Both the position numbers and the translations under genes were made by a program. Shown piece after piece: positions 36,412 through 46,876 of a stretch of 64,000 nucleotides of DNA. A model generated the notes under the pieces. That model was not told the origin of the DNA and made no database searches. It saw only the letters and a list, made by a program, of their open reading frames with translations. This DNA comes from Halobaculum gomorrense (GTDB lineage: Archaea > Halobacteriota > Halobacteria > Halobacteriales > Haloferacaceae). The stretch lies in assembly GCF_900129775.1 (NCBI RefSeq), contig NZ_FQWV01000003.1, positions 186,001-250,000 of the forward strand, in the 5' to 3' direction. Position 1 is the first letter of the stretch. The number at the start of each line of letters is the position of its first letter.

Positions 36412-37644
36412 CTACTCGGCGTCGCCGGCGACCGCGTCGGCGACGCGGTCGCGGTCGAACAGGCGTTCGGCCTCGGGGAGCTCCGGGTAGGGGTCCCCGT
36501 GCTCGTACTCCGGCCACTCGCCGAACTGCTCGGGGTACAGCTGCTTCGCCGTCATCTCCAGCTGGAAGAGGTTCATCAGGGGCCCCTGAACGGGCGTCGC
36601 CGACGGGTAGAAGCGGTCGTTGCGGATCGCCGCGAGCTCCCCGCCCACGGGGTCGTTCGCGATCGTCTCGCGGATCGACGCAACGTCGTAGTAGGAGTTG
36701 ATGCCGTACTGGTGGAGGATCACGTCGGGGTCGACCTCCAGCAGCGTCTCGTAGTCGTACGTCGTCCCGAAGCCGGCGTCGGTCCCGGCGAACGCGTCCG
36801 TCGCGCCCAGCGGCCGGACGTGTGCGTTCCCGAACCCCGGCGCGTTGATCTTCGAGGGGTAGAACGTCCCGTCGAAGAAGATCCCCTCCGCCACCGAGGG
36901 GCGTTCGGACTCCGGCGGGAGCCCCGCCTCGATGGTCGCGATCAGGTCGTCGTGGACCGCCGCGAGACGCTCGGCCCGCTCGGACGCTCCGAAGAGCGCG
37001 GCGACACGCTCGCTGATGTCCCACAGCGTGTAGTACTCGTACTCCTCGCGCCACCCCTCGGGCGGCTGGCCGTGCGTCCGGCTGTACACGTTCCCGAACC
37101 ACGGGCCCACGTTGGCCGCGATCTCCTCGATGTCGGCGCGCTCCCAGCCGTCGAAGGAGTCGATCAGCGCCGGGTCCATGAGATGCAGGTCGGAGTCGAG
37201 TTCGTAGAACAGCTCCTTTTCGACGCGGATCTCGCCCGAGCCGCTGTTGAGCTGCGCGAGGTCCTCGTAGTCGAATGAGACGCCGTTGAGGCGCTCGTAG
37301 TACGCGTCGAGCGTGTTCCCGCCGGCGGCCGCGTCGAACCCAAGAGAGTTCACCGCGTCGCCGTAGCCGTACGCGACGGCCATGTCCGCGTACAGGAGGC
37401 TGTACACCGAGAGGCTCGACGGCGCCGATTCGAGGGTCACCTCGCCGACCGGCGCCATCGACGCCGAGTACCCGGGAGCCGGCGTCGGCGTCGCGGTCCC
37501 CGGTTCGGTGCCTGCCGTCGCCGTCGATCGTCTCTCCGTGGTCTCCGTCGGTCCGTCCTCGGCGTCCGATCCGGTACACCCGGCCAGCCCCGCGGCCGCG
37601 GCGCCGACGCCCAGTTCGACGAACCGCCGTCGATTCAGATCCAT
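36412..37644 (-). CDS. iron-siderophore ABC importer substrate-binding lipoprotein 2
   Basis: The 410-residue lipoprotein shares its first eight-plus residues with binding protein 1 (MDLNRRRFV.LG), with lipobox Cys23, then a Thr/Glu linker and a FecB-like domain. It is clearly a distant paralogue: both have APVGxVTxxxxPxxxxVYxxxYADM and LFYELDSDxHLxDP. It has no permease of its own nearby and so probably feeds the same channel with a different ligand. Paired DtxR-like boxes surround its promoter. Confidence 0.87.
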   Translation of the reverse strand: MDLNRRRFVELGVGAAAAGLAGCTGSDAEDGPTETTERRSTATAGTEPGTATPTPAPGYSASMAPVGEVTLESAPSSLSVYSLLYADMAVAYGYGDAVNSLGFDAAAGGNTLDAYYERLNGVSFDYEDLAQLNSGSGEIRVEKELFYELDSDLHLMDPALIDSFDGWERADIEEIAANVGPWFGNVYSRTHGQPPEGWREEYEYYTLWDISERVAALFGASERAERLAAVHDDLIATIEAGLPPESERPSVAEGIFFDGTFYPSKINAPGFGNAHVRPLGATDAFAGTDAGFGTTYDYETLLEVDPDVILHQYGINSYYDVASIRETIANDPVGGELAAIRNDRFYPSATPVQGPLMNLFQLEMTAKQLYPEQFGEWPEYEHGDPYPELPEAERLFDRDRVADAVAGDAE

Positions 37645-38449: not shown

Positions 38450-39787
38450 GTGCGAGTCGTGATCATCGGCGCGGGACAGGTGGGAGAGCGTATCGCCGCG
38501 GACCTCGACGAGAGCCACGACGTGGTGATCGTCGAGCGCGACGCCGAGCGGTGCGAGGAGCTAACGTACTCGCTCGACGTGTTGACGGTCAACGGCGACG
38601 GGACCGCCGTCTCGACGCTCGAAGACGCCGAGATCGCCGACGCCGACATGGTCGTCGCCTCGACCGACGACGACGAGACGAACATCGTCGCCTGCTCGAC
38701 GGCGAAGGCCGTCAGCGACGCGTTCACCGTCGCGCGGATCAAGAACACGGAGTACCTCCGCACGTGGGAGCGCTCGCAGTCGGCGTTCGGCATCGACTTC
38801 ATGGTGTGCACGAACCTGCTCACCGCCGAGTCCATCGTTCGCGTCATCGGCCTCCCGGCCGCCCGCGACGTGGACCCGTTCGCCGACGGCAAGGTGCAGA
38901 TGGCCGAGTTCGAGGTGAGCGAGACGAGCCCGCTGGCGGGACAGACCGTCAGCGAGGCCGACCGCTTCGACTCGCTCACGTTCGCCGCGATCATCCGCGA
39001 GGACGAGATCGTGATCCCCCGGGGAGAGACGGTGATCGAGGCGGGCGACCGCGCGGTCGTCATCGGCTCGTCCGGGAGCGTCCGCGGGTTCGCCGCAGAC
39101 GTGGCGCCCGAGGAGCACGTCGGGACCGGCGAGGAGGTGGTCATCGTCGGCGGCTCGGAGATCGGCTATCACACCGCGCGCCTGCTGACTGACCGGGGCT
39201 TTTCGCCCCGGCTGATCGAACAGGACGAGGACCGCGCTCGAACCCTGGCCGAGAAGCTGCCCGAGGCGTTCGTGATGCAGTCGGACGCCACGGACGTGGG
39301 CTTTCTCGAACGCGAGCGCGTCGGCGACGCGGACGTGCTCATCGCCGCGCTTGACTCCGACGAGAAGAACCTCCTTTCGTGTCTACTGGCGACCCGCCTC
39401 GGGGTCGAGCGCACGGTCGCCGTCGTCGACCAGACCGCTTACGTCGACTTGTTCGAGACGGTCGGCATCGACGTGGGCGTCAGCCCGCGGGCGGTCGTCG
39501 CCGAGGAGATATCGCGGTTCACCCGGGAGGGAGGCGCCGAGAACGTCGCGCTCATCGAGGACGACCGCGCGGAGGTGCTGGAGGTCGAGGTGACCGAGGA
39601 GTCGCTGCTCGCGAACCGGCCGATCAGTGAATCGATCCACGACTTCCCGGAGTGCCTCGTCATCGGCGCGATCACCCGCGAGAGAGAGCTCGTCACGCCC
39701 CGCGGCGACACCGTGATCCGGCCCGGTGACCACGTCGTCGTCTTCTTCGAGACCACCGTCGTCGACGAGGTCACCTCGAAGCTGTAG
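38450..39787 (+). CDS. trkA: Trk K+ uptake regulatory subunit TrkA (two RCK units)
   Basis: The 445-residue, GTG-initiated protein has two tandem NAD(H)-binding RCK_N domains (VVIIGAGQVGERIA at residue 3 and VVIVGGSEIGYHTA near 230). Each is followed by an RCK_C domain (GETVIEAGDRAVVIGS and GDTVIRPGDHVVVFF). It gates the TrkH potassium channel in response to nucleotides. Haloarchaea accumulate molar K+ as osmolyte. The TrkH genes lie 5.5 kb downstream. Confidence 0.92.
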   Translation: MRVVIIGAGQVGERIAADLDESHDVVIVERDAERCEELTYSLDVLTVNGDGTAVSTLEDAEIADADMVVASTDDDETNIVACSTAKAVSDAFTVARIKNTEYLRTWERSQSAFGIDFMVCTNLLTAESIVRVIGLPAARDVDPFADGKVQMAEFEVSETSPLAGQTVSEADRFDSLTFAAIIREDEIVIPRGETVIEAGDRAVVIGSSGSVRGFAADVAPEEHVGTGEEVVIVGGSEIGYHTARLLTDRGFSPRLIEQDEDRARTLAEKLPEAFVMQSDATDVGFLERERVGDADVLIAALDSDEKNLLSCLLATRLGVERTVAVVDQTAYVDLFETVGIDVGVSPRAVVAEEISRFTREGGAENVALIEDDRAEVLEVEVTEESLLANRPISESIHDFPECLVIGAITRERELVTPRGDTVIRPGDHVVVFFETTVVDEVTSKL

Positions 39788-39820: not shown

Positions 39821-40918
39821 TCACTCCACGGCGATCGTCCGCTCGGGCATCCCGCCGAGCAGGCCGCCGAAGGCGGTCTCGTACCCCTCGTGGCGGGCCA
39901 CCTGCGGCCACACGGTCGGCGCCAGCGTCAGTTCGTCGCCCGACTCGACGGTCTCCCCGTCGAGGGCGGCGCCGTAGTGGTACGACAGGTCGGGATCGAG
40001 CGTCCGGGCGAGTTCGCCCGAGAACAGCTCTTCACCGTCGCGCGTCAGCGTCGCCTCCAGCCCCATCGCGGGGATGACCATCCGGTTGTACGGCGTGCGC
40101 GCAGACACGGCGAGGTAGGGGCCCGCGGCGTCGACCCCCGCCGGCGGCTCGTCGAGCGCGGTCGCGACCAGCACCGCGTCGTTGCTGTTCGCCTCCCCGA
40201 GCGCCGTCCCGGGGAGGTCGCCGACGGCGGGGGCGGTCGCGTCCGGGATCATCTCCATGTCCATCGGGTCGACGGCGCCCGGCGCTCCGGCGTCGTCGAG
40301 GATGCGGTAGGAGACCTCCTGCAGCTTCGACCGGGTGAACTCGAACTCGACGGGGATGTCCGCGGGTTCGGCGAAGCGGTCACCGAACGCGCCTGTCCGA
40401 CGGGTGCGCACGCCGCCGACGGAGACGGTCGCTGTATAGGTGCCGTCGCCGTCGAGACCGAAGTTCGCGCCGTAATGAAAGCCCATGGGCTGGGAGAGCA
40501 TCGGGTAGATGACTTCCTGGGAGACCAGCGAGCCGTCCGTCTCGATCTCCACCGAGAGCCCCGTCTCGGGGAGCACCTCGCCGGTCTCGGTATCCCAGAC
40601 GCTCGCCATCAGGTGTACGTCGTCGTTCGACTGGATATCCGTCCGCTCGACCGACTCGCTGGTGACGTTCCAAAACCGGTGGGCGTACGAGTAGAACACG
40701 CCCACGGTGTAGTCCCCGGCCGACGCCATCCCCCCCATCTGCATCCCCTCGATGTGGCTCGGGAGGTAGACGCCGTCCGGGCGGTCCTCAACGACGGGCG
40801 GCGCTCGCGGCACGTCGCCGCCGGTCGCGAGCTCGAAGCCGAGGCAGCCGGAGACCCCCCCGGCCCCGGCGACGGCGCCGGTCGCCGCTGCGCTCCGCAG
40901 AAACGCTCGTCTGTCCAT
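39821..40918 (-). CDS. P19-like Fe2+-binding Tat lipoprotein
   Basis: The 365-residue lipoprotein has MDRRAFLRS and lipobox VSGC with Cys25. Its first domain contains the marks of the periplasmic high-affinity Fe2+ protein P19/Tp34: a Met-rich GMQMGGM, then NDDVHLMASVW, then MLSQPMGFHYGANFGLDG. The last parallels the family's MPM...GPHYGAN iron/copper site. A second, related beta domain follows with MDMEMIPD. It probably binds ferrous iron (or copper) outside the cell. It is divergent from the propeller gene and shares a promoter-like run with the Dyp-like gene. Confidence 0.8.
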   Translation of the reverse strand: MDRRAFLRSAAATGAVAGAGGVSGCLGFELATGGDVPRAPPVVEDRPDGVYLPSHIEGMQMGGMASAGDYTVGVFYSYAHRFWNVTSESVERTDIQSNDDVHLMASVWDTETGEVLPETGLSVEIETDGSLVSQEVIYPMLSQPMGFHYGANFGLDGDGTYTATVSVGGVRTRRTGAFGDRFAEPADIPVEFEFTRSKLQEVSYRILDDAGAPGAVDPMDMEMIPDATAPAVGDLPGTALGEANSNDAVLVATALDEPPAGVDAAGPYLAVSARTPYNRMVIPAMGLEATLTRDGEELFSGELARTLDPDLSYHYGAALDGETVESGDELTLAPTVWPQVARHEGYETAFGGLLGGMPERTIAVE

Positions 40919-40953
40919 ATGCACCCTGCGGGCTCGCCACGAAAGGGGATTCT

Positions 40954-41032
40954 GGTACACCCGTCGAACGGAGCGGTACGCCCGTCGAACCGACCTGTCC
41001 GTTCGCCGAACGGAGTGGTACGCCCGTCGAAC
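40954..41032. repeat. three copies of a 16-bp direct repeat in the divergent promoter region
   Basis: GGTACACCCGTCGAAC (40954-40969) and two GGTACGCCCGTCGAAC copies (40975-40990 and 41017-41032) lie between the P19-like and propeller genes. Spacing is 21 then 42 bp start to start, one and two helical periods of about 21 bp. They may be binding sites of a shared regulator. Confidence 0.55.
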
Positions 41033-41082
41033 GTCGGTCGAGAGGAGGAGCGCTTACCACGGGTCGCGTCGTCGCTCCGGCG

Positions 41083-42354
41083 ATGGACGTTCGTATCGCC
41101 CTGACGGCCGCGGTCGTGACCTTGGCCGCCGTCGGCGGCGGCATCGCGGTATCGGGAGCGCTCGACGGGAGGATCGCCCTTGGGGGAGACAACGCCCTCG
41201 AGGAGCGCTGGGCGAGCGACACTGAGACCAGCATCGGCGCGAATCACCACGCGGTCGCCGCGGGGGTCGTCGACGGCGAGGGGCTCGTGTTCGCCCCCGT
41301 CAGCGGCGCCACGGGGAGCGGCGAGTGCCGCCTCGTCGCCCTCGACGGCGACACCGGCGATACGCGCTGGCGCGACGGCGTGCCGCCGGCGAACTGCACG
41401 CTCCACTCCGTCGCCGATCCCGCGATCGCGGATATCGACGGCGACGGCGCGGCCGAGGTCCTCGCCGCCTCGACGACGGAGGAGCTCGTCGGCTACGACG
41501 CGCGGACGGGCGCCGTGGAGTTACGGACGACGCTGTCGGCGTACGGCTACAGCCGCCCCGCGGTCGCCGACCTGGACGGCGACGGCACCGTCGAGGTGCT
41601 CGTCGTCGACGCCGTCGGGACCGTCCACGCGTTCCACGGCGACGGCGAGCGCGTGTGGACCGAGCCCCTCGACGGCAGCGCGTATGCGCCCCCGGGCGTC
41701 GGCGACTTCACCGGCGACGGCACCGCCGAGTTCGCCGTCGGCCTCGGCACGAGCGAGGTCGTCCTGTTCGACGCCGGCGGCGAGGTCGTCTGGGATCGCG
41801 ACGCCTTCGGCGAGTCGGTCGCGTGGACCGCGACGGGAGACGTGACCGGCGACGACGCGGCGGAGTTCGTCGTCGCTACGACCGGCGGCACGGTCGCGGC
41901 GCTGGACGGCGCGACCGGCGACGCGCTGTGGACGCGGCAGATCGACGAGTTCGCCGCGGTGGGCGCCGTCGGCGACGGGGACGGCGACGGCGACCCAGAG
42001 GTGTACGTGACGGCGCGCGACCAGCGCCTCCGCGCGCTCGACGGCGCCACCGGCCGGACGGAGTGGACAGTTGATCTCGCAGAGGGGAGCGCACAGATGA
42101 CACCGCCGCCCGCAATTGGCGACCTCGACGGCGACGGCTCCCTCGAAGTGGTCGCCGTCACCAACGGCGGGGTCGTCTCGGTGATCGACCCGGCAGCCGG
42201 GCGCGTAGTGGCGAGCTACACCCGCGACGAGGCGGTGTTCACCCATCCCACGCTCGCGGACGTGGACGGGGACGGCGACGACGAGGTGTTCGTCCCGTAC
42301 GCGAACGGGCGGGTCGTCTCGTTGGACTCCGCCGACAACGGAGCCGATTCGTGA
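41083..42354 (+). CDS. membrane-anchored seven-bladed FG-GAP/PQQ-like beta-propeller
   Basis: The 423-residue protein has an N-terminal signal anchor (IALTAAVVTLAAVGGGIAVSGAL) and seven repeats of the type (V/I)xDxDGDGxxEVxV, for example IADIDGDGAAEVLAAS and IGDLDGDGSLEVVAVT. They alternate with PQQ-like ALDGATGRTEW strands. The DxDxDG loops would bind Ca2+. Secreted propellers of this kind usually act as binding scaffolds. It is divergent from the P19-like gene and is followed by a small membrane protein overlapping or 65 bp away. Confidence 0.8.
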   Translation: MDVRIALTAAVVTLAAVGGGIAVSGALDGRIALGGDNALEERWASDTETSIGANHHAVAAGVVDGEGLVFAPVSGATGSGECRLVALDGDTGDTRWRDGVPPANCTLHSVADPAIADIDGDGAAEVLAASTTEELVGYDARTGAVELRTTLSAYGYSRPAVADLDGDGTVEVLVVDAVGTVHAFHGDGERVWTEPLDGSAYAPPGVGDFTGDGTAEFAVGLGTSEVVLFDAGGEVVWDRDAFGESVAWTATGDVTGDDAAEFVVATTGGTVAALDGATGDALWTRQIDEFAAVGAVGDGDGDGDPEVYVTARDQRLRALDGATGRTEWTVDLAEGSAQMTPPPAIGDLDGDGSLEVVAVTNGGVVSVIDPAAGRVVASYTRDEAVFTHPTLADVDGDGDDEVFVPYANGRVVSLDSADNGADS

Positions 42355-42419
42355 CCGAACGCGGCGACCGCGGCGACCGGCCGAAATCGTATTGTGGCGA
42401 GCGGCCCTCCGGTACGGCG

Positions 42420-42716
42420 ATGAGGTCGCGTCACGTTCGCCTCGGGGCGGTCGCTTCCGCCGTCGTGTTCGCGCTCGCCGCGCTGCCCGCCTCGGCCGCG
42501 GCCCACCCGAGCCACGTCGCCTCAACGCCGACGGGACCGCTGGCCGGAGCGTCGCCCGTGGGGGTCGGCATCGGACTCGCAGGACTCGCGCTGGTCTCCG
42601 GGGCGCTGCTGCTCGCCCGGGAGGGGGTCCTCACCGAGCGTGCGCGCAGCGCCGGGGTCGGCGCCGGCGCCGCGCTGGTGATCGCCGGCGCGGCGGCGGC
42701 GGTCCTGCTGGCGTAG
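42420..42716 (+). CDS. small exported membrane protein, unknown
   Basis: The 98-residue product (ATG 42420) has an N-terminal signal-like helix ending ASAAAH, then a second and third hydrophobic stretch (PVGVGIGLAGLALVSGALLL and AGAALVIAGAAAAVLLA). A GTG at 42351, which overlaps the propeller stop by 4 bp, is an alternative start that adds 23 charged residues. The Pro-Ser-His segment after the signal (HPSHVAS) is the only polar patch outside. Confidence 0.6.
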   Translation: MRSRHVRLGAVASAVVFALAALPASAAAHPSHVASTPTGPLAGASPVGVGIGLAGLALVSGALLLAREGVLTERARSAGVGAGAALVIAGAAAAVLLA

Positions 42717-42722
42717 CCGCCT

Positions 42723-42787
42723 GGATGCGTGGCTATCGGCTGGATGCGTGGCTATCGGCTGGATGCGTGGCTATCGGCTGGATGCGG
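42723..42787. repeat. 19-bp tandem repeat, three full copies plus a partial
   Basis: GGATGCGTGGCTATCGGCT is repeated exactly at 42723-42741, 42742-42760 and 42761-42779, with the first 8 bases again at 42780-42787. It fills the gap between two convergent stop codons. Perfect identity implies recent slippage; a terminator or phase-variable role is possible but unsupported. Confidence 0.75.
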
Positions 42788-42790
42788 GCG

Positions 42791-44137
42791 CTATCCCGCG
42801 GCCCCGTCGGGCGTCGGCAGCGCGCGCAGCGACCGCGGCGGCACGAGGAAGTACCCCCGGTGGCGCACGAAGATGTACTCAAGGATGCCGTTGTTGACGC
42901 GCTGGCGCACGGCCGGCGTCGCCTCGGTCGCGTCGACGCCGTTCATCGCCCGCCGAACCCCCTCGAACTGGTCGATCGAACGCTGGAGCGACGGGAAGTG
43001 GAGGCTGGCGATCCCCTCGTCGGCCGACTCGAAGTGCCGCCGGAGCAGCAGCGGGTTCCCGTCGCCGTCGCGGTTCGCCCTCGCGGCCTTCTGGGCGTGA
43101 CCGACGCGCCCGTACTCCTTCGCGTTCGGGACGACCTCGTCGGTGAACCGGTCGATCCCGGAGTCGTCGCCGAGGTTCTCTCCCACCCCCTCGACGAGGT
43201 CGTTGACCGCGTGGCCGGGCGAGAACATCTCCATCACCTGTTGTTCGTGGTCCTGCTCGCCGTACCAGTCGCTCAGGCGCTGGCGCCAGTTGCCGACGGA
43301 CTTGGTCGTCCCCTCGGCGAATGGCCCCTCGCCGATCGTCACGTCGTCCTCGGTCGCCTGGTTCTGCCGGAACCCCGCCATGAACCCCATGAACAGCGGT
43401 GACGCCTTCGGGACGGGGTTGTCCGCCGGGATGCCCTCGATCCCGTCGGCCTTCTGTCGCGGTATCCCCGCGCCGACGAAGCCGGTCCGACGCGCGTCGA
43501 CCTCCAGCGCGTCCGTCAGCGCCGACGGGAACGAGACGCCGTTCGCCTCGTCGGCGTCCCCGGTGAGCGCGCGTTCGGCCGCCAGCAGCGCGTCGGGGCG
43601 GTCGGAGGCGAGGTGGACGAGCACGTCCTGGGTGTCGAACTCCGGCGTCTCGTAGTCCGCGAGCGGCGTCGGCTCCGGCAGCGACACGTCGTCGGGAACC
43701 GCGAGCGGGTCGCCGAAGCGCTCGAAGTAGCGCGGGGAGTACGCAGCCGAGTGGAGCAGCCCCTCGTGGCTCCACGCGTACGCTCGGTCGAGCGCGTCCA
43801 GCGCGCCCGCGACCGCCTCGCGGTCGGCGTCGGCGGGCGGGCCCTCGCGAGGGAAGGTCAGATACAGCAGCGTCTGGTGGGACGGGTACTGCCAGTTGCC
43901 GGCGTCGTCGGTGCGCACGAAGTCGTTCCAGGCGAACTGTCGCTCGGGGTGAGCGTCGGGACCGTCGCCCGCCGGCACCGGCTCCGCGCCGTCGAGTCGG
44001 TCGACGCAGGCGGCGAGCCCAGTCGCGCCGCCGACCGCGACAGCCGCCTTCAGCGCCTCGCGGCGCGAGAGGGCGTCCGCCGCCGAGTCGTCCGCGGGGG
44101 CGTCCGTGTCCGCATCGCTGGCGTCCGCGTCGGTCAT
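42791..44137 (-). CDS. Dyp-type peroxidase-like Tat lipoprotein
   Basis: The 448-residue protein starts with an acidic leader, then a twin-arginine signal (SRREALKAAVAVGG) and lipobox LAAC with Cys44. The C-terminal half follows the dye-decolourising peroxidase pattern: RVGHAQKAARANRDGDG with a candidate heme-ligand His, NPLLLRRHFES, and IASLHFPSLQRSIDQFEGV. The canonical GXXDG distal motif is not obvious (KADGIEG is the nearest), so peroxidase activity is uncertain. With the P19-like protein it resembles the EfeUOB iron/heme pairing. GCACCACAACCCCCTT (opposite strand of 44162-44177) precedes it by 25 bp. Confidence 0.72.
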   Translation of the reverse strand: MTDADASDADTDAPADDSAADALSRREALKAAVAVGGATGLAACVDRLDGAEPVPAGDGPDAHPERQFAWNDFVRTDDAGNWQYPSHQTLLYLTFPREGPPADADREAVAGALDALDRAYAWSHEGLLHSAAYSPRYFERFGDPLAVPDDVSLPEPTPLADYETPEFDTQDVLVHLASDRPDALLAAERALTGDADEANGVSFPSALTDALEVDARRTGFVGAGIPRQKADGIEGIPADNPVPKASPLFMGFMAGFRQNQATEDDVTIGEGPFAEGTTKSVGNWRQRLSDWYGEQDHEQQVMEMFSPGHAVNDLVEGVGENLGDDSGIDRFTDEVVPNAKEYGRVGHAQKAARANRDGDGNPLLLRRHFESADEGIASLHFPSLQRSIDQFEGVRRAMNGVDATEATPAVRQRVNNGILEYIFVRHRGYFLVPPRSLRALPTPDGAAG

Positions 44138-44244
44138 ACCCGACCTATCGGCGTCACAGAGAAGGGGGTTGTGGTGCGGGCGTCGAACGGCGGCCGCGGC
44201 GACCGAGCGTCGCCCGCGGCGACGGGGCCGGCGGAGCCGACGCC

Positions 44245-44778
44245 TCACTCCAACAGGGCGTCCACGAGACGAGTGAACCGGTCGAGCAGGCGGTCGGGGA
44301 GCGACGGCTCGATCCGACGCAGCGACCGCGCGGTCGCCTCCGGGTCAGTCAGAGCGAGCGTCACCCGCCCGCGGGCGTCGCGCCGCTTCTCGACGACGCC
44401 GGCGTCGACGAGGCCGTCGAGATGGTGCTCTAGGGTGCTCCGAGCGACACCGACCTCGCCCGCGACGGCGTCGGGCCGGGCGGGACCGTCGAGGAGTTCG
44501 ACGACGGCCTCGCGCGCGGTCTCGCGGCGGAACAGCGCCAGCCGCTCGCGCTCGATCGGGTCGATCCCAGGGTCGAAGTAGTGCGTCCGGCCAGACACCT
44601 CTTCGTCGACGACGCGGTCCGCCCGGACAAGCCGGCGGAGGTGGTACTGGGCCTGTCCGGGCGCCAGGTCGAGGCGGCGGACGAGTTCGTTGAAGTGGAG
44701 GCCGGGGTGTGCAAGCACGTAGTCGGCCACGCGCTCGCGCGTCGGGCGGTCGCCCCGGGTCGCGGGCGGTTCGCTCAC
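44245..44778 (-). CDS. double winged-helix transcriptional regulator
   Basis: The 177-residue, GTG-initiated protein has two winged-helix units. The first is about residues 15-65 (HPGLHFNELVRRLDLAPGQAQYHLRRL), the second about 85-150 (RPDAVAGEVGVARSTLEHHLDGLVDAGVV). This tandem ArsR/MarR-like layout is common in haloarchaea. It overlaps the membrane-protein gene upstream by 4 bp and ends 107 bp before the Dyp-like start, so it may regulate the neighbouring iron module. Confidence 0.82.
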   Translation of the reverse strand: MSEPPATRGDRPTRERVADYVLAHPGLHFNELVRRLDLAPGQAQYHLRRLVRADRVVDEEVSGRTHYFDPGIDPIERERLALFRRETAREAVVELLDGPARPDAVAGEVGVARSTLEHHLDGLVDAGVVEKRRDARGRVTLALTDPEATARSLRRIEPSLPDRLLDRFTRLVDALLE

Positions 44779-45098
44779 GACGCGGCCTCCGCCCGGACAT
44801 CACGGGCGTAGTACACCGCCGCGACGACGAGGCCCGCCATGACCACGTCGAGGACGTGCTCGCCGAAGTGGTGGGCGTCGGGACCGACGACCCCCACCGC
44901 CGAGGCGGCGGCGACGCCCGCGCGGGCCACGAGCGCGCCGAGCGCGAGCGCGACGAGCAGGTACGACCGCGAGCGGCGGCGGAAGAACGCCGCGAGCCCG
45001 AGTCCGAGCAGGAGCGCGCCGGCGACGCCGCCGACGGCGACCACGACCGCGTAGGCGACTCCCTGAACGCCCGGGGCGACCTGGAGCAGGCTGTTCAT
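44775..45098 (-). CDS. three-helix membrane protein partner of the regulator
   Basis: The 107-residue protein has three transmembrane helices (VAYAVVVAVGGVAGALLLGLG, LLVALALGALVARAGVAAAS, and HVLDVVMAGLVVAAVYYA). A DAHHFGEH segment between the second and third helices could bind metal. The 4-bp overlap with the double winged-helix gene makes a membrane-sensor plus regulator pair plausible. No family function known to me. Confidence 0.7.
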   Translation of the reverse strand: MNSLLQVAPGVQGVAYAVVVAVGGVAGALLLGLGLAAFFRRRSRSYLLVALALGALVARAGVAAASAVGVVGPDAHHFGEHVLDVVMAGLVVAAVYYARDVRAEAAS

Positions 45099-45250
45099 AC
45101 CCACAGAATCCGCCGGGCGGACTTCACGGTTGCGCGCCGCGATTGCGCACTCGCCCCCGAACGTCGCGGTCGCGGGGGCGGCCCGCTCCCGTCCAAACCG
45201 TCGGCGCCGGAACGGTAGCTTCAACATCGACGCGCTCGCCGACATCGAGA

Positions 45251-46876
45251 GTGAACATCCGCGTCGAGTACCGGGCGAGCCTGAGTCTCGTCGGGACCGT
45301 CGTGCGGTACCTCTCGGTCCCGCTGGTGGCCCCGTTTTTTGTCTCGCTGTACTACGGCGAATCGGTCGCGCCGTTCGCCGTGACGATCCTCCTCACCCTG
45401 CTGGTCGGCAGCGGGCTCGAACGGCTCGACCCCGACCCCGATATCGGCGCCCGCGAGGGGTTCCTCATGGTGGCGGCGACGTGGATCGCGGTCGCGGTCG
45501 TCGGAGCGGTTCCCTACCTCGTCGAGGCGCACGGAGTCCCCGGGCTGGTCCCGGCGCTCCACCCGGAGTCGACGCTCGGGAACCCCGTGAACGCCCTGTT
45601 CGAGGCGATGTCGGGGTTCACGACGACCGGAGCGACCGTTCTCGGCGACATCTCCTTCGACTCGCACACACGCGGGGTCATGTTGTGGCGCCAGCTGACG
45701 CAGTGGCTCGGCGGGATGGGGATCGTCGTCCTCGCGGTCGCCATCCTCCCCGAGCTGTCGGTGGGCGGCGCCCAGCTCATGGACGCGGAGGCGCCCGGCC
45801 CCGGCATCGAGAAGCTCACGCCGCGGATCGCCGAGACGGCGCGCGTGCTGTGGGGCGTCTACGCCGGGCTCACCGCCTTGGAGATCGTGCTCCTGTACGG
45901 GATGCACCTCGCCGGACCGGCGCTCGGGATCCCCGGTCTCGCCCCGAACATGACGCTGTACAACGCCGTCGCCCACGGGCTGACGACGATGCCCACGGGC
46001 GGGTTCTCGCCGGAGGCGCGCTCCATCGAGGCGTTCTCCGCGGCCGTCCAGTGGGTGATCGTCCCGTTCATGATCGCCGCCGGCGTCAACTTCGCGCTGT
46101 TCTGGGGCGTGCTCACGGGCGACCCACGGCGGATGGTCCGCGATGTGGAGTTCCGGGCGTACGTCGGGGCGATGGGGGTGCTCGCGGCGGTGCTCTCGCT
46201 GCTGTTGTTCGGCGGGAGCTTCGTCGAGGCGGTGCCGCCGGGCGGGGAGACGTACGACGCCGCGTACCTCTCGTCGGTGACCGACGCGGTCGTCGGGAAC
46301 GCCGAGCCGGCGATCCGTCACGCGGTGTTTCAGGTCGTCTCGATCGTGACCACGACCGGCTACGCCAGCATCGACTTCAACACTTGGAGCGCGCCCGCCC
46401 AGTACCTCCTGCTGTTCGGGATGTTCATCGGCGGGTCAGCCGGGTCGACCGGCGGGTCGATCAAGGTCATCCGCTGGGTCGTCATCGCGAAGTCGCTGCG
46501 GCGCGAGCTGTTCACGACGGCCCACCCGGACGCCGTTCGTCCCGTTCGCCTGAACGGGCGCGCGCTCGACGAGCGCGGGGTGCGGGGGATATTCGCGTTC
46601 TCGCTCCTCTACCTGGTACTGTTCTTCCTGTCGGTGTTCCTGCTATTTCTGGACGCGACCAGGCTGTCGGCGTCGTTCACCGTGCTCGAGACGATGAGCG
46701 CGGTCGCGGCGACGCTCGGAAACGTCGGTCCGGGGTTCGGCATCGTGGGTCCGATGGGCGGGTACCTGGCGTTCACCGACATCGGCACGCTGTACATGGT
46801 GTTCCTGATGTGGGTCGGTCGCCTGGAGATCATCCCGGTGCTCGTCTGTCTCACGCCGGAGTACTGGCGTCGGTGA
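45251..46876 (+). CDS. trkH: Trk K+ channel subunit TrkH (first copy)
   Basis: The 541-residue protein has the TrkH fold with pore-loop selectivity segments: MSGFTTTGATVL, LTTMPTGGFSP, TTTGYASIDF and LGNVGPGFG, one per M1-P-M2 repeat. GTG 45251 (VNIRVEYRASLSLVG) is the start that matches family N-termini; the frame upstream is Arg-rich translation of intergenic DNA. It imports K+ with a TrkA partner. Confidence 0.92.
   Translation: MNIRVEYRASLSLVGTVVRYLSVPLVAPFFVSLYYGESVAPFAVTILLTLLVGSGLERLDPDPDIGAREGFLMVAATWIAVAVVGAVPYLVEAHGVPGLVPALHPESTLGNPVNALFEAMSGFTTTGATVLGDISFDSHTRGVMLWRQLTQWLGGMGIVVLAVAILPELSVGGAQLMDAEAPGPGIEKLTPRIAETARVLWGVYAGLTALEIVLLYGMHLAGPALGIPGLAPNMTLYNAVAHGLTTMPTGGFSPEARSIEAFSAAVQWVIVPFMIAAGVNFALFWGVLTGDPRRMVRDVEFRAYVGAMGVLAAVLSLLLFGGSFVEAVPPGGETYDAAYLSSVTDAVVGNAEPAIRHAVFQVVSIVTTTGYASIDFNTWSAPAQYLLLFGMFIGGSAGSTGGSIKVIRWVVIAKSLRRELFTTAHPDAVRPVRLNGRALDERGVRGIFAFSLLYLVLFFLSVFLLFLDATRLSASFTVLETMSAVAATLGNVGPGFGIVGPMGGYLAFTDIGTLYMVFLMWVGRLEIIPVLVCLTPEYWRR

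Follow-up and report, generated by a model that had tools for sequence, protein, structure and literature searches.

Six genes of Halobaculum and a probable extracytoplasmic copper-handling module in haloarchaea

What do the six genes that lie between two sets of K+ uptake genes in Halobaculum gomorrense have in common? The genes occupy positions 39821-45098 of a 64-kb stretch of contig NZ_FQWV01000003.1 (the window, 64,000 nucleotides), in a haloarchaeal genome of 3.2 Mb; among named organisms, Halobaculum litoreum and H. saliterrae have the most closely related locus. A first-pass annotation had grouped them as an undescribed extracellular module for iron or heme, built around a P19-like protein, a beta-propeller, a Dyp-like protein and a membrane-linked regulator. 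Gene calls, domain searches and inspection of the open reading frames (ORFs) confirmed all six genes, their positions and their K+ uptake neighbors, and no paper in the literature searched mentions DUF7405, the Pfam family of the Dyp-like protein, in keeping with a module that has not been described. We conclude that the genes form a conserved block and that this block is probably a haloarchaea-wide extracytoplasmic module for the handling (acquisition or delivery) of copper for respiratory copper proteins.

The block recurs across the haloarchaea. Of the 194 genomes of the class, 172 have DUF7405, 167 have DUF7350 and 163 have DUF7471, and all 15 genomes of family f1 listed as lacking DUF7405 also lack DUF7350. 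A control search showed a homologue of the P19-DUF7350 lipoprotein in Haloferax volcanii. We compared 80 loci centered on DUF7405, picked by hand for diversity, with as many loci taken at random in those genomes; gene calls in these loci came from a simple script based on codon usage, and the counts across genomes, here and below, include related, non-independent samples. A gene coding for a P19-DUF7350 protein was found near DUF7405 in 62 of the 80 loci and in one random locus, and the genes for DUF7471 and for a helix-turn-helix (HTH) regulator were each found in 31 loci and in no random locus. The recurring operon order is DUF7471-HTH-DUF7405-P19. The propeller gene was present in 13 loci (one random locus); it is usually paired with a gene of the F5 membrane protein family, often also with P19. 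Also enriched were F5 itself (17/80 versus 2/80), the F10 family (8/80 versus 0/80), DUF7282 (8/80 versus 0/80) and, mostly in Halobaculum, a family of binding proteins of the ATP-binding cassette (ABC) type (6 versus 0). The gene for the small exported protein is present in 6/6 Halobaculum genomes and in 0/188 others. Because of these counts and this genus restriction, we regard the block as having a conserved four-gene core, to which the propeller and the small protein are accessory. The view of the six genes as one functional block holds: they group far above chance. Two minor corrections are that the small protein is lineage-restricted and the propeller facultative.

The minus-strand gene at 39821-40918 codes for a lipoprotein exported by twin-arginine translocation (Tat), in which Pfam recognizes an Iron_transport/P19 domain (PF10634; E 2e-5, 25.3 bits, cut-off 21) followed by DUF7350 (E 5.6e-52). 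Both GMQMGGM and HYGAN, which had suggested P19-type Met/His sites, are in the sequence. A profile search of the PDB retrieved FtrA (E 3.6e-7), as well as FetP and relatives, and the AlphaFold2 model (predicted local distance difference test score, pLDDT, 87.2) has FetP (3nrp) as its best Foldseek match (E 2.6e-6), which bears out the P19-type identity. The two halves of the protein match in a profile comparison (probability 96.7), and the Pfam DUF7350 model also matches the first domain; DUF7350 is therefore a second, degenerate P19-like domain. H102, M104, M140, M145 and H148 are invariant in 64 relatives. In P19 proteins, the metal site comprises the two charged or ionizable residues of HLE (His and Glu), the Met of PM, the HYG His and a further His downstream, which are assigned as copper ligands; titles of PDB entries include variants of FetP at M90 and E46. 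The haloarchaeal proteins keep the first His as well as the PM and HYG of FtrA (H102, M140 and H148 in 64/64). The HLE of its HLEAD motif is replaced by HLM or an equivalent, with Met at the position of the Glu (M104) in all 64, and they have no counterpart of HFGRH, a segment of FtrA that bears His further downstream. Because of the change to M104 and the loss of this segment, we do not class the protein as a P19 iron protein; it has a P19 fold with a changed metal site. Met-rich sites favor Cu(I), and two such motifs are conserved to varying degrees: a Mets-like MxMxxM (M59 in 61/64, M61 in 54/64, M64 in 33/64) and PMDMEM (M219 in 58/64).

The second lipoprotein, encoded on the minus strand at 42791-44137, belongs to DUF7405 (E 1.5e-156). 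Matches to DyP proteins by sequence alone were weak (E 0.07-0.5), so the relation was settled by a fold search. The model (pLDDT 86.7) gave 182 PDB matches with E<=0.001, the best 50 of which are all DyP-type, with 9e4r at the top (E 4.3e-15). The description of this protein as a Dyp-peroxidase-like Tat lipoprotein is therefore correct as to fold. H347, R366 and R367 are invariant in 69/69 relatives and align with the proximal His of AHVKRT and with the RR (distal Arg) of DyP chains, in a sequence alignment that is itself weak (E 0.12). The distal Asp of GxxDG is absent from all 69, replaced by Ser (37), Ala (31) or Val (1). The Klebsiella enzyme KpDyP cannot form Compound I rapidly unless it has the distal Asp (PMC6153280), and by analogy the loss of this residue suggests that the peroxide chemistry of DUF7405 may be weakened or altered. 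Since this residue is missing, DUF7405 is, as modeled, best described as having a DyP fold without being a canonical DyP peroxidase. A classical DyP was also sought in the genome of the window and rejected, as the curated model PF04261 had no match there.

The genes of the two lipoproteins share a promoter motif. In Halobaculum, their upstream regions have in common GTTCGAC-n4-yACCAsAAyCCCCTT, at a constant 52 bp before the start codon; in the window the motif is represented by GTTCGACGGGTGTACCAGAATCCCCTT upstream of the P19 gene (40943-40969, minus strand, with the core TTCGA-N7-ACCA at 40953-40968) and by GTTCGACGCCCGCACCACAACCCCCTT upstream of the DyP-like gene (44162-44188, minus strand, core at 44172-44187). 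The motif was found post hoc in this one genus and then tested in other genera and at random loci. Above 12 bits, the Halobaculum matrix finds only these two expected sites in the window. Outside these Halobaculum loci, it scores above the 99th background percentile in 33/78 upstream regions of DyP genes and 27/73 of P19 genes. The core occurs three times in the window, always within the block, with 0.28 occurrences expected. The third match (41016-41031, minus strand) is one of three further motif-like copies of the TTCGAC-GTACC half that lie between the P19 and propeller genes (40962-41032), spaced in a 21-bp phase, as a candidate operator array.

Across all loci, the core was found upstream of 36/90 DyP, 30/85 P19, 5/10 F10, 4/10 SCO1 and 6/28 F5 genes, mostly at -50/-51, and upstream of 19 of 2,574 other genes. 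Five of those 19 code for NosD and three for plastocyanin-type proteins, and a DsbA-like gene, a HiPIP gene and the gene of a DUF7350-DUF7282 fusion are also among them; NosL, DsbD_2, halocyanin and rhodanese genes also have the core. At the random control loci, two of 1,166 genes have it, one coding for SCO1 and the other for a P19-DUF7350 protein. The DyP and P19 sites span 20 genera, and positions outside the search pattern (C at +9, G at +10, AA at +17/+18) are conserved as well. The motif at DyP or P19 genes and the HTH/DUF7471 pair tend to occur together in a locus (21/27 versus 11/49; p=6e-6, uncorrected for kinship). Upstream of the DUF7471 and HTH genes themselves the motif is rare (2/41 and 0/45), and it does not occur upstream of the small-protein gene.

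Is the metal copper or iron? The FTR1 permease (PF03239) was found in 0/194 genomes of the class, which agrees with the earlier remark that an EfeU-like permease is missing. We took the 150 best-scoring matches per family and asked which of them have a listed match to DUF7405, DUF7350 or DUF7471 no more than 5 kb away. This was so for 28 genes of the copper chaperone SCO1, as compared with one gene of the iron-siderophore permease FecCD (Fisher p=1.5e-8). This whole-genome comparison was used because a union test around the DUF7405 loci (12 versus 2, p=0.005) was biased, its families having first been seen in the loci tested; it was set aside. Singly, SCO1, TlpA, CcdA, NosL, CtaA and halocyanin were not significant in Fisher tests around those loci, and DsbD_2 was marginal. 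In genomes without DUF7405 and DUF7350, the HTH/DUF7471 pair is found inside clusters of SCO1, DsbD_2, NosL, NosD and ABC genes (L213:4668-11969, L215, L216 and L222; in L215 and L216 only the HTH gene was recognized). These four examples are Halorubrum-like, the genus being inferred, and are mutually related rather than independent; in L213, copies of the motif stand upstream of several genes of the cluster. At another locus, L220, the pair adjoins a CopC-CopD fusion. The linkage to SCO1, the change of HLE to HLM, the absence of FTR1 and the motif at genes of copper proteins lead us to favor copper over iron.

Several points weigh against a copper-supply module. Most DyP and P19 promoters lack the exact motif, which is present in about 40% of the former and 35% of the latter, and another regulator, responsive to oxygen or redox state, could be its reader. 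SCO1 (PF02630) was not detected in the genome of the window, and so it is not a partner of the module there. In Halobaculum, a member (36412-37644) of the enriched ABC-type binding-protein family stands near the block. Lastly, relatives of P19 take part in iron uptake (PMC10783030, PMC6083913). The main alternatives are a redox or respiration regulon and a defense against copper, and iron uptake is a weaker one.

The first of these, which we consider unlikely, is that the genes belong to a respiration or redox regulon under an oxygen- or nitric oxide-responsive factor, and that the function of the module is electron transfer or defense against peroxide, not copper supply. The motif upstream of genes for three plastocyanin-type proteins, a HiPIP, a DsbA-like protein and rhodanese would fit, as would the strong induction, under denitrification, of an operon for SCO, thioredoxin and cytochrome c biogenesis in Haloferax mediterranei (PMC11218638). 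However, the published denitrification motif CGAAYATDKTYG (PMC10062603, PMC11218638) differs from TTCGA-N7-ACCA, and identity of the two was rejected. Moreover, presence of the motif tracks the HTH/DUF7471 pair, and the His/Met site of the P19 protein, together with SCO1, NosL and CopC-CopD as copper-maturation neighbors, points to metal handling.

Uptake of iron or heme iron, as first proposed for this locus, is a little less likely still. It would have the P19 protein take up Fe(II), with the DyP-like protein as a deferrochelatase or ferroxidase and the permease unlinked, much as in EfeUOB or FetMP. The DyP/EfeB fold of DUF7405 fits such a scheme, as do the iron-uptake roles of P19 homologues and the binding-protein family just mentioned. 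Against it stand the lack of FTR1 in 194/194 genomes and the single FecCD gene near the module, on which grounds we rejected it, the change of the HLEAD Glu to Met in 64/64 relatives, and a motif held in common with SCO1, NosD, NosL and halocyanin genes. Least probable is that the secreted proteins sequester and oxidize excess copper instead of supplying it, for although the Met-rich motifs, the CopC-CopD neighbor in L220 and the ArsR-like domain of the regulator (a type common in metal-efflux regulators, here a sub-threshold match) would suit detoxification, the recurrent partners are the delivery or maturation factors SCO1, NosL, NosD, DsbD_2 and CtaA, and no copper-efflux ATPase is prominent among the recurrent neighbors of the DyP/P19 core.

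How might a copper-handling module of this kind work? We propose that the double-P19 lipoprotein captures copper through H102, M104, M140, M145, H148 and the Met-rich motifs and passes it, outside the membrane, to the copper proteins of respiration. The second lipoprotein, with its DyP fold, would bind heme and act as a redox partner, either on the valence state of copper or on peroxide near Cu(I). DUF7471 may be a membrane sensor of metal or redox state, and the HTH protein, together with DUF7471, would act at TTCGA-N7-ACCA some 50 bp upstream of the start codons of its targets. The propeller and, in other genera, the F5 and F10 membrane proteins would be accessory. A bolder version, which we put forward tentatively and think possible rather than probable, is a new copper regulon under DUF7471 and the HTH_HVO_0163-type regulator at TTCGA-N7-ACCA, in which copper would reach respiratory enzymes by an alternative route, through a cuproprotein with two P19 domains and a heme lipoprotein derived from DyP, that could stand in for the missing SCO1 in most Halobaculum. 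The module is kept in this genus, where SCO1 (PF02630) was not detected in 5/6 genomes, that of the window included.

The regulator gene (44245-44778, minus strand) overlaps the upstream DUF7471 gene (44775-45098, minus strand) by 4 bp. Its product has two winged-helix domains, HTH_HVO_0163_N and, below threshold, an ArsR-like HTH_20/HTH_5, and the membrane partner with a DAHHFGEH loop proved to be DUF7471. The HHxxxH of this loop is invariant in 40/40 relatives, with a near-invariant E and D beside it in DAHHFGEHVLD. On the plus strand, the gene at 41083-42354 encodes a PQQ_2/FG-GAP-type propeller with an N-terminal anchor and seven DxDxDG-type loops, matching the seven Ca2+-loop repeats noticed at first. 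H55, H56, C82, C105 and H108 are invariant in 25/25 relatives, a set that may be a metal or disulfide site and is atypical of plain PQQ/FG-GAP propellers. The small membrane protein (42420-42716, plus strand; possible ORF start at 42351) has a signal peptide or transmembrane segment and a predicted mature N-terminus of HPSH. The H. litoreum locus has the same arrangement, propeller and small protein included; in other Halobaculum relatives the propeller is not at this place.

F5 (L094:5994-7361, L101:4190-5509 and others) and F10 (L115:8554-9663) are multi-transmembrane proteins of no Pfam family, found repeatedly alongside the propeller and the module; the motif stands at several of their genes. 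Their predicted mature N-termini follow AxA|H (AHEV, AHSG), and this N-terminal His recalls copper histidine-brace proteins. Thioredoxin lipoproteins of DsbA-like type (L223:9536-10177 and the F13 family) are more frequent near DUF7405 than at control loci (10 versus 1), and the gene of one of them has the motif. An 856-residue lipoprotein (L125:3203-5773), whose gene carries TTCGA-N7-ACCA, has two stretches matching DUF7350 fused to DUF7282; through this fusion DUF7282, a recurrent neighbor of DUF7405, is tied to the module. The block is flanked by TrkA (38450-39787) and by two TrkH genes (45218-46876 and 48616-46949), and about 2 kb beyond it, at 36412-37644, is a divergent Peripla_BP_2-like Tat lipoprotein (E 1.4e-4) of a family that clusters beside the module in Halobaculum.

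Haloarchaea depend for respiration on copper proteins such as halocyanins, heme-copper oxidases and N2O reductase, and the capture and delivery of copper outside the cell are poorly known. If our interpretation is correct, the near-universal DUF7405, DUF7350 and DUF7471 families gain a testable role, and the P19 and DyP folds, usually tied to iron and heme, extend to copper handling. The promoter motif, for its part, defines candidate members of one regulon in at least 20 genera.

The module can be set beside several known systems. With P19, FetP and FtrA (PF10634; PDB 3nrp, 8vv5, 3lzl) the haloarchaeal lipoprotein shares the fold and the ligand motifs VHL, PM and HYG(A/D)N. It differs in carrying two P19-like domains within a single Tat-exported polypeptide, in HLM for HLE, an additional invariant M145 and Met-rich motifs, and in lacking the downstream His segment and an FTR1 permease as partner. 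DUF7405 is like DyP peroxidases and EfeB deferrochelatases in fold, Tat export, the aligned His and the RR motif, but lacks the distal Asp in 69/69 relatives, forms its own Pfam family and is missed by PF04261 in its own genome. EfeUOB and FetMP likewise have a secreted DyP-type or P19 protein as a component; the module, in contrast, occurs without EfeU/FetM (FTR1) in 194/194 genomes and is linked to copper genes instead. As to EfeUOB in particular, EfeU is absent and PF04261 has no match in the genome of the window; EfeO was not searched for. With the SCO1, PCuAC and NosL maturation systems the module shares its neighborhood and promoter motif, and its His/Met-rich P19 site resembles the sites of copper chaperones; its folds and components differ, and Halobaculum, largely without SCO1, yet keeps the module.

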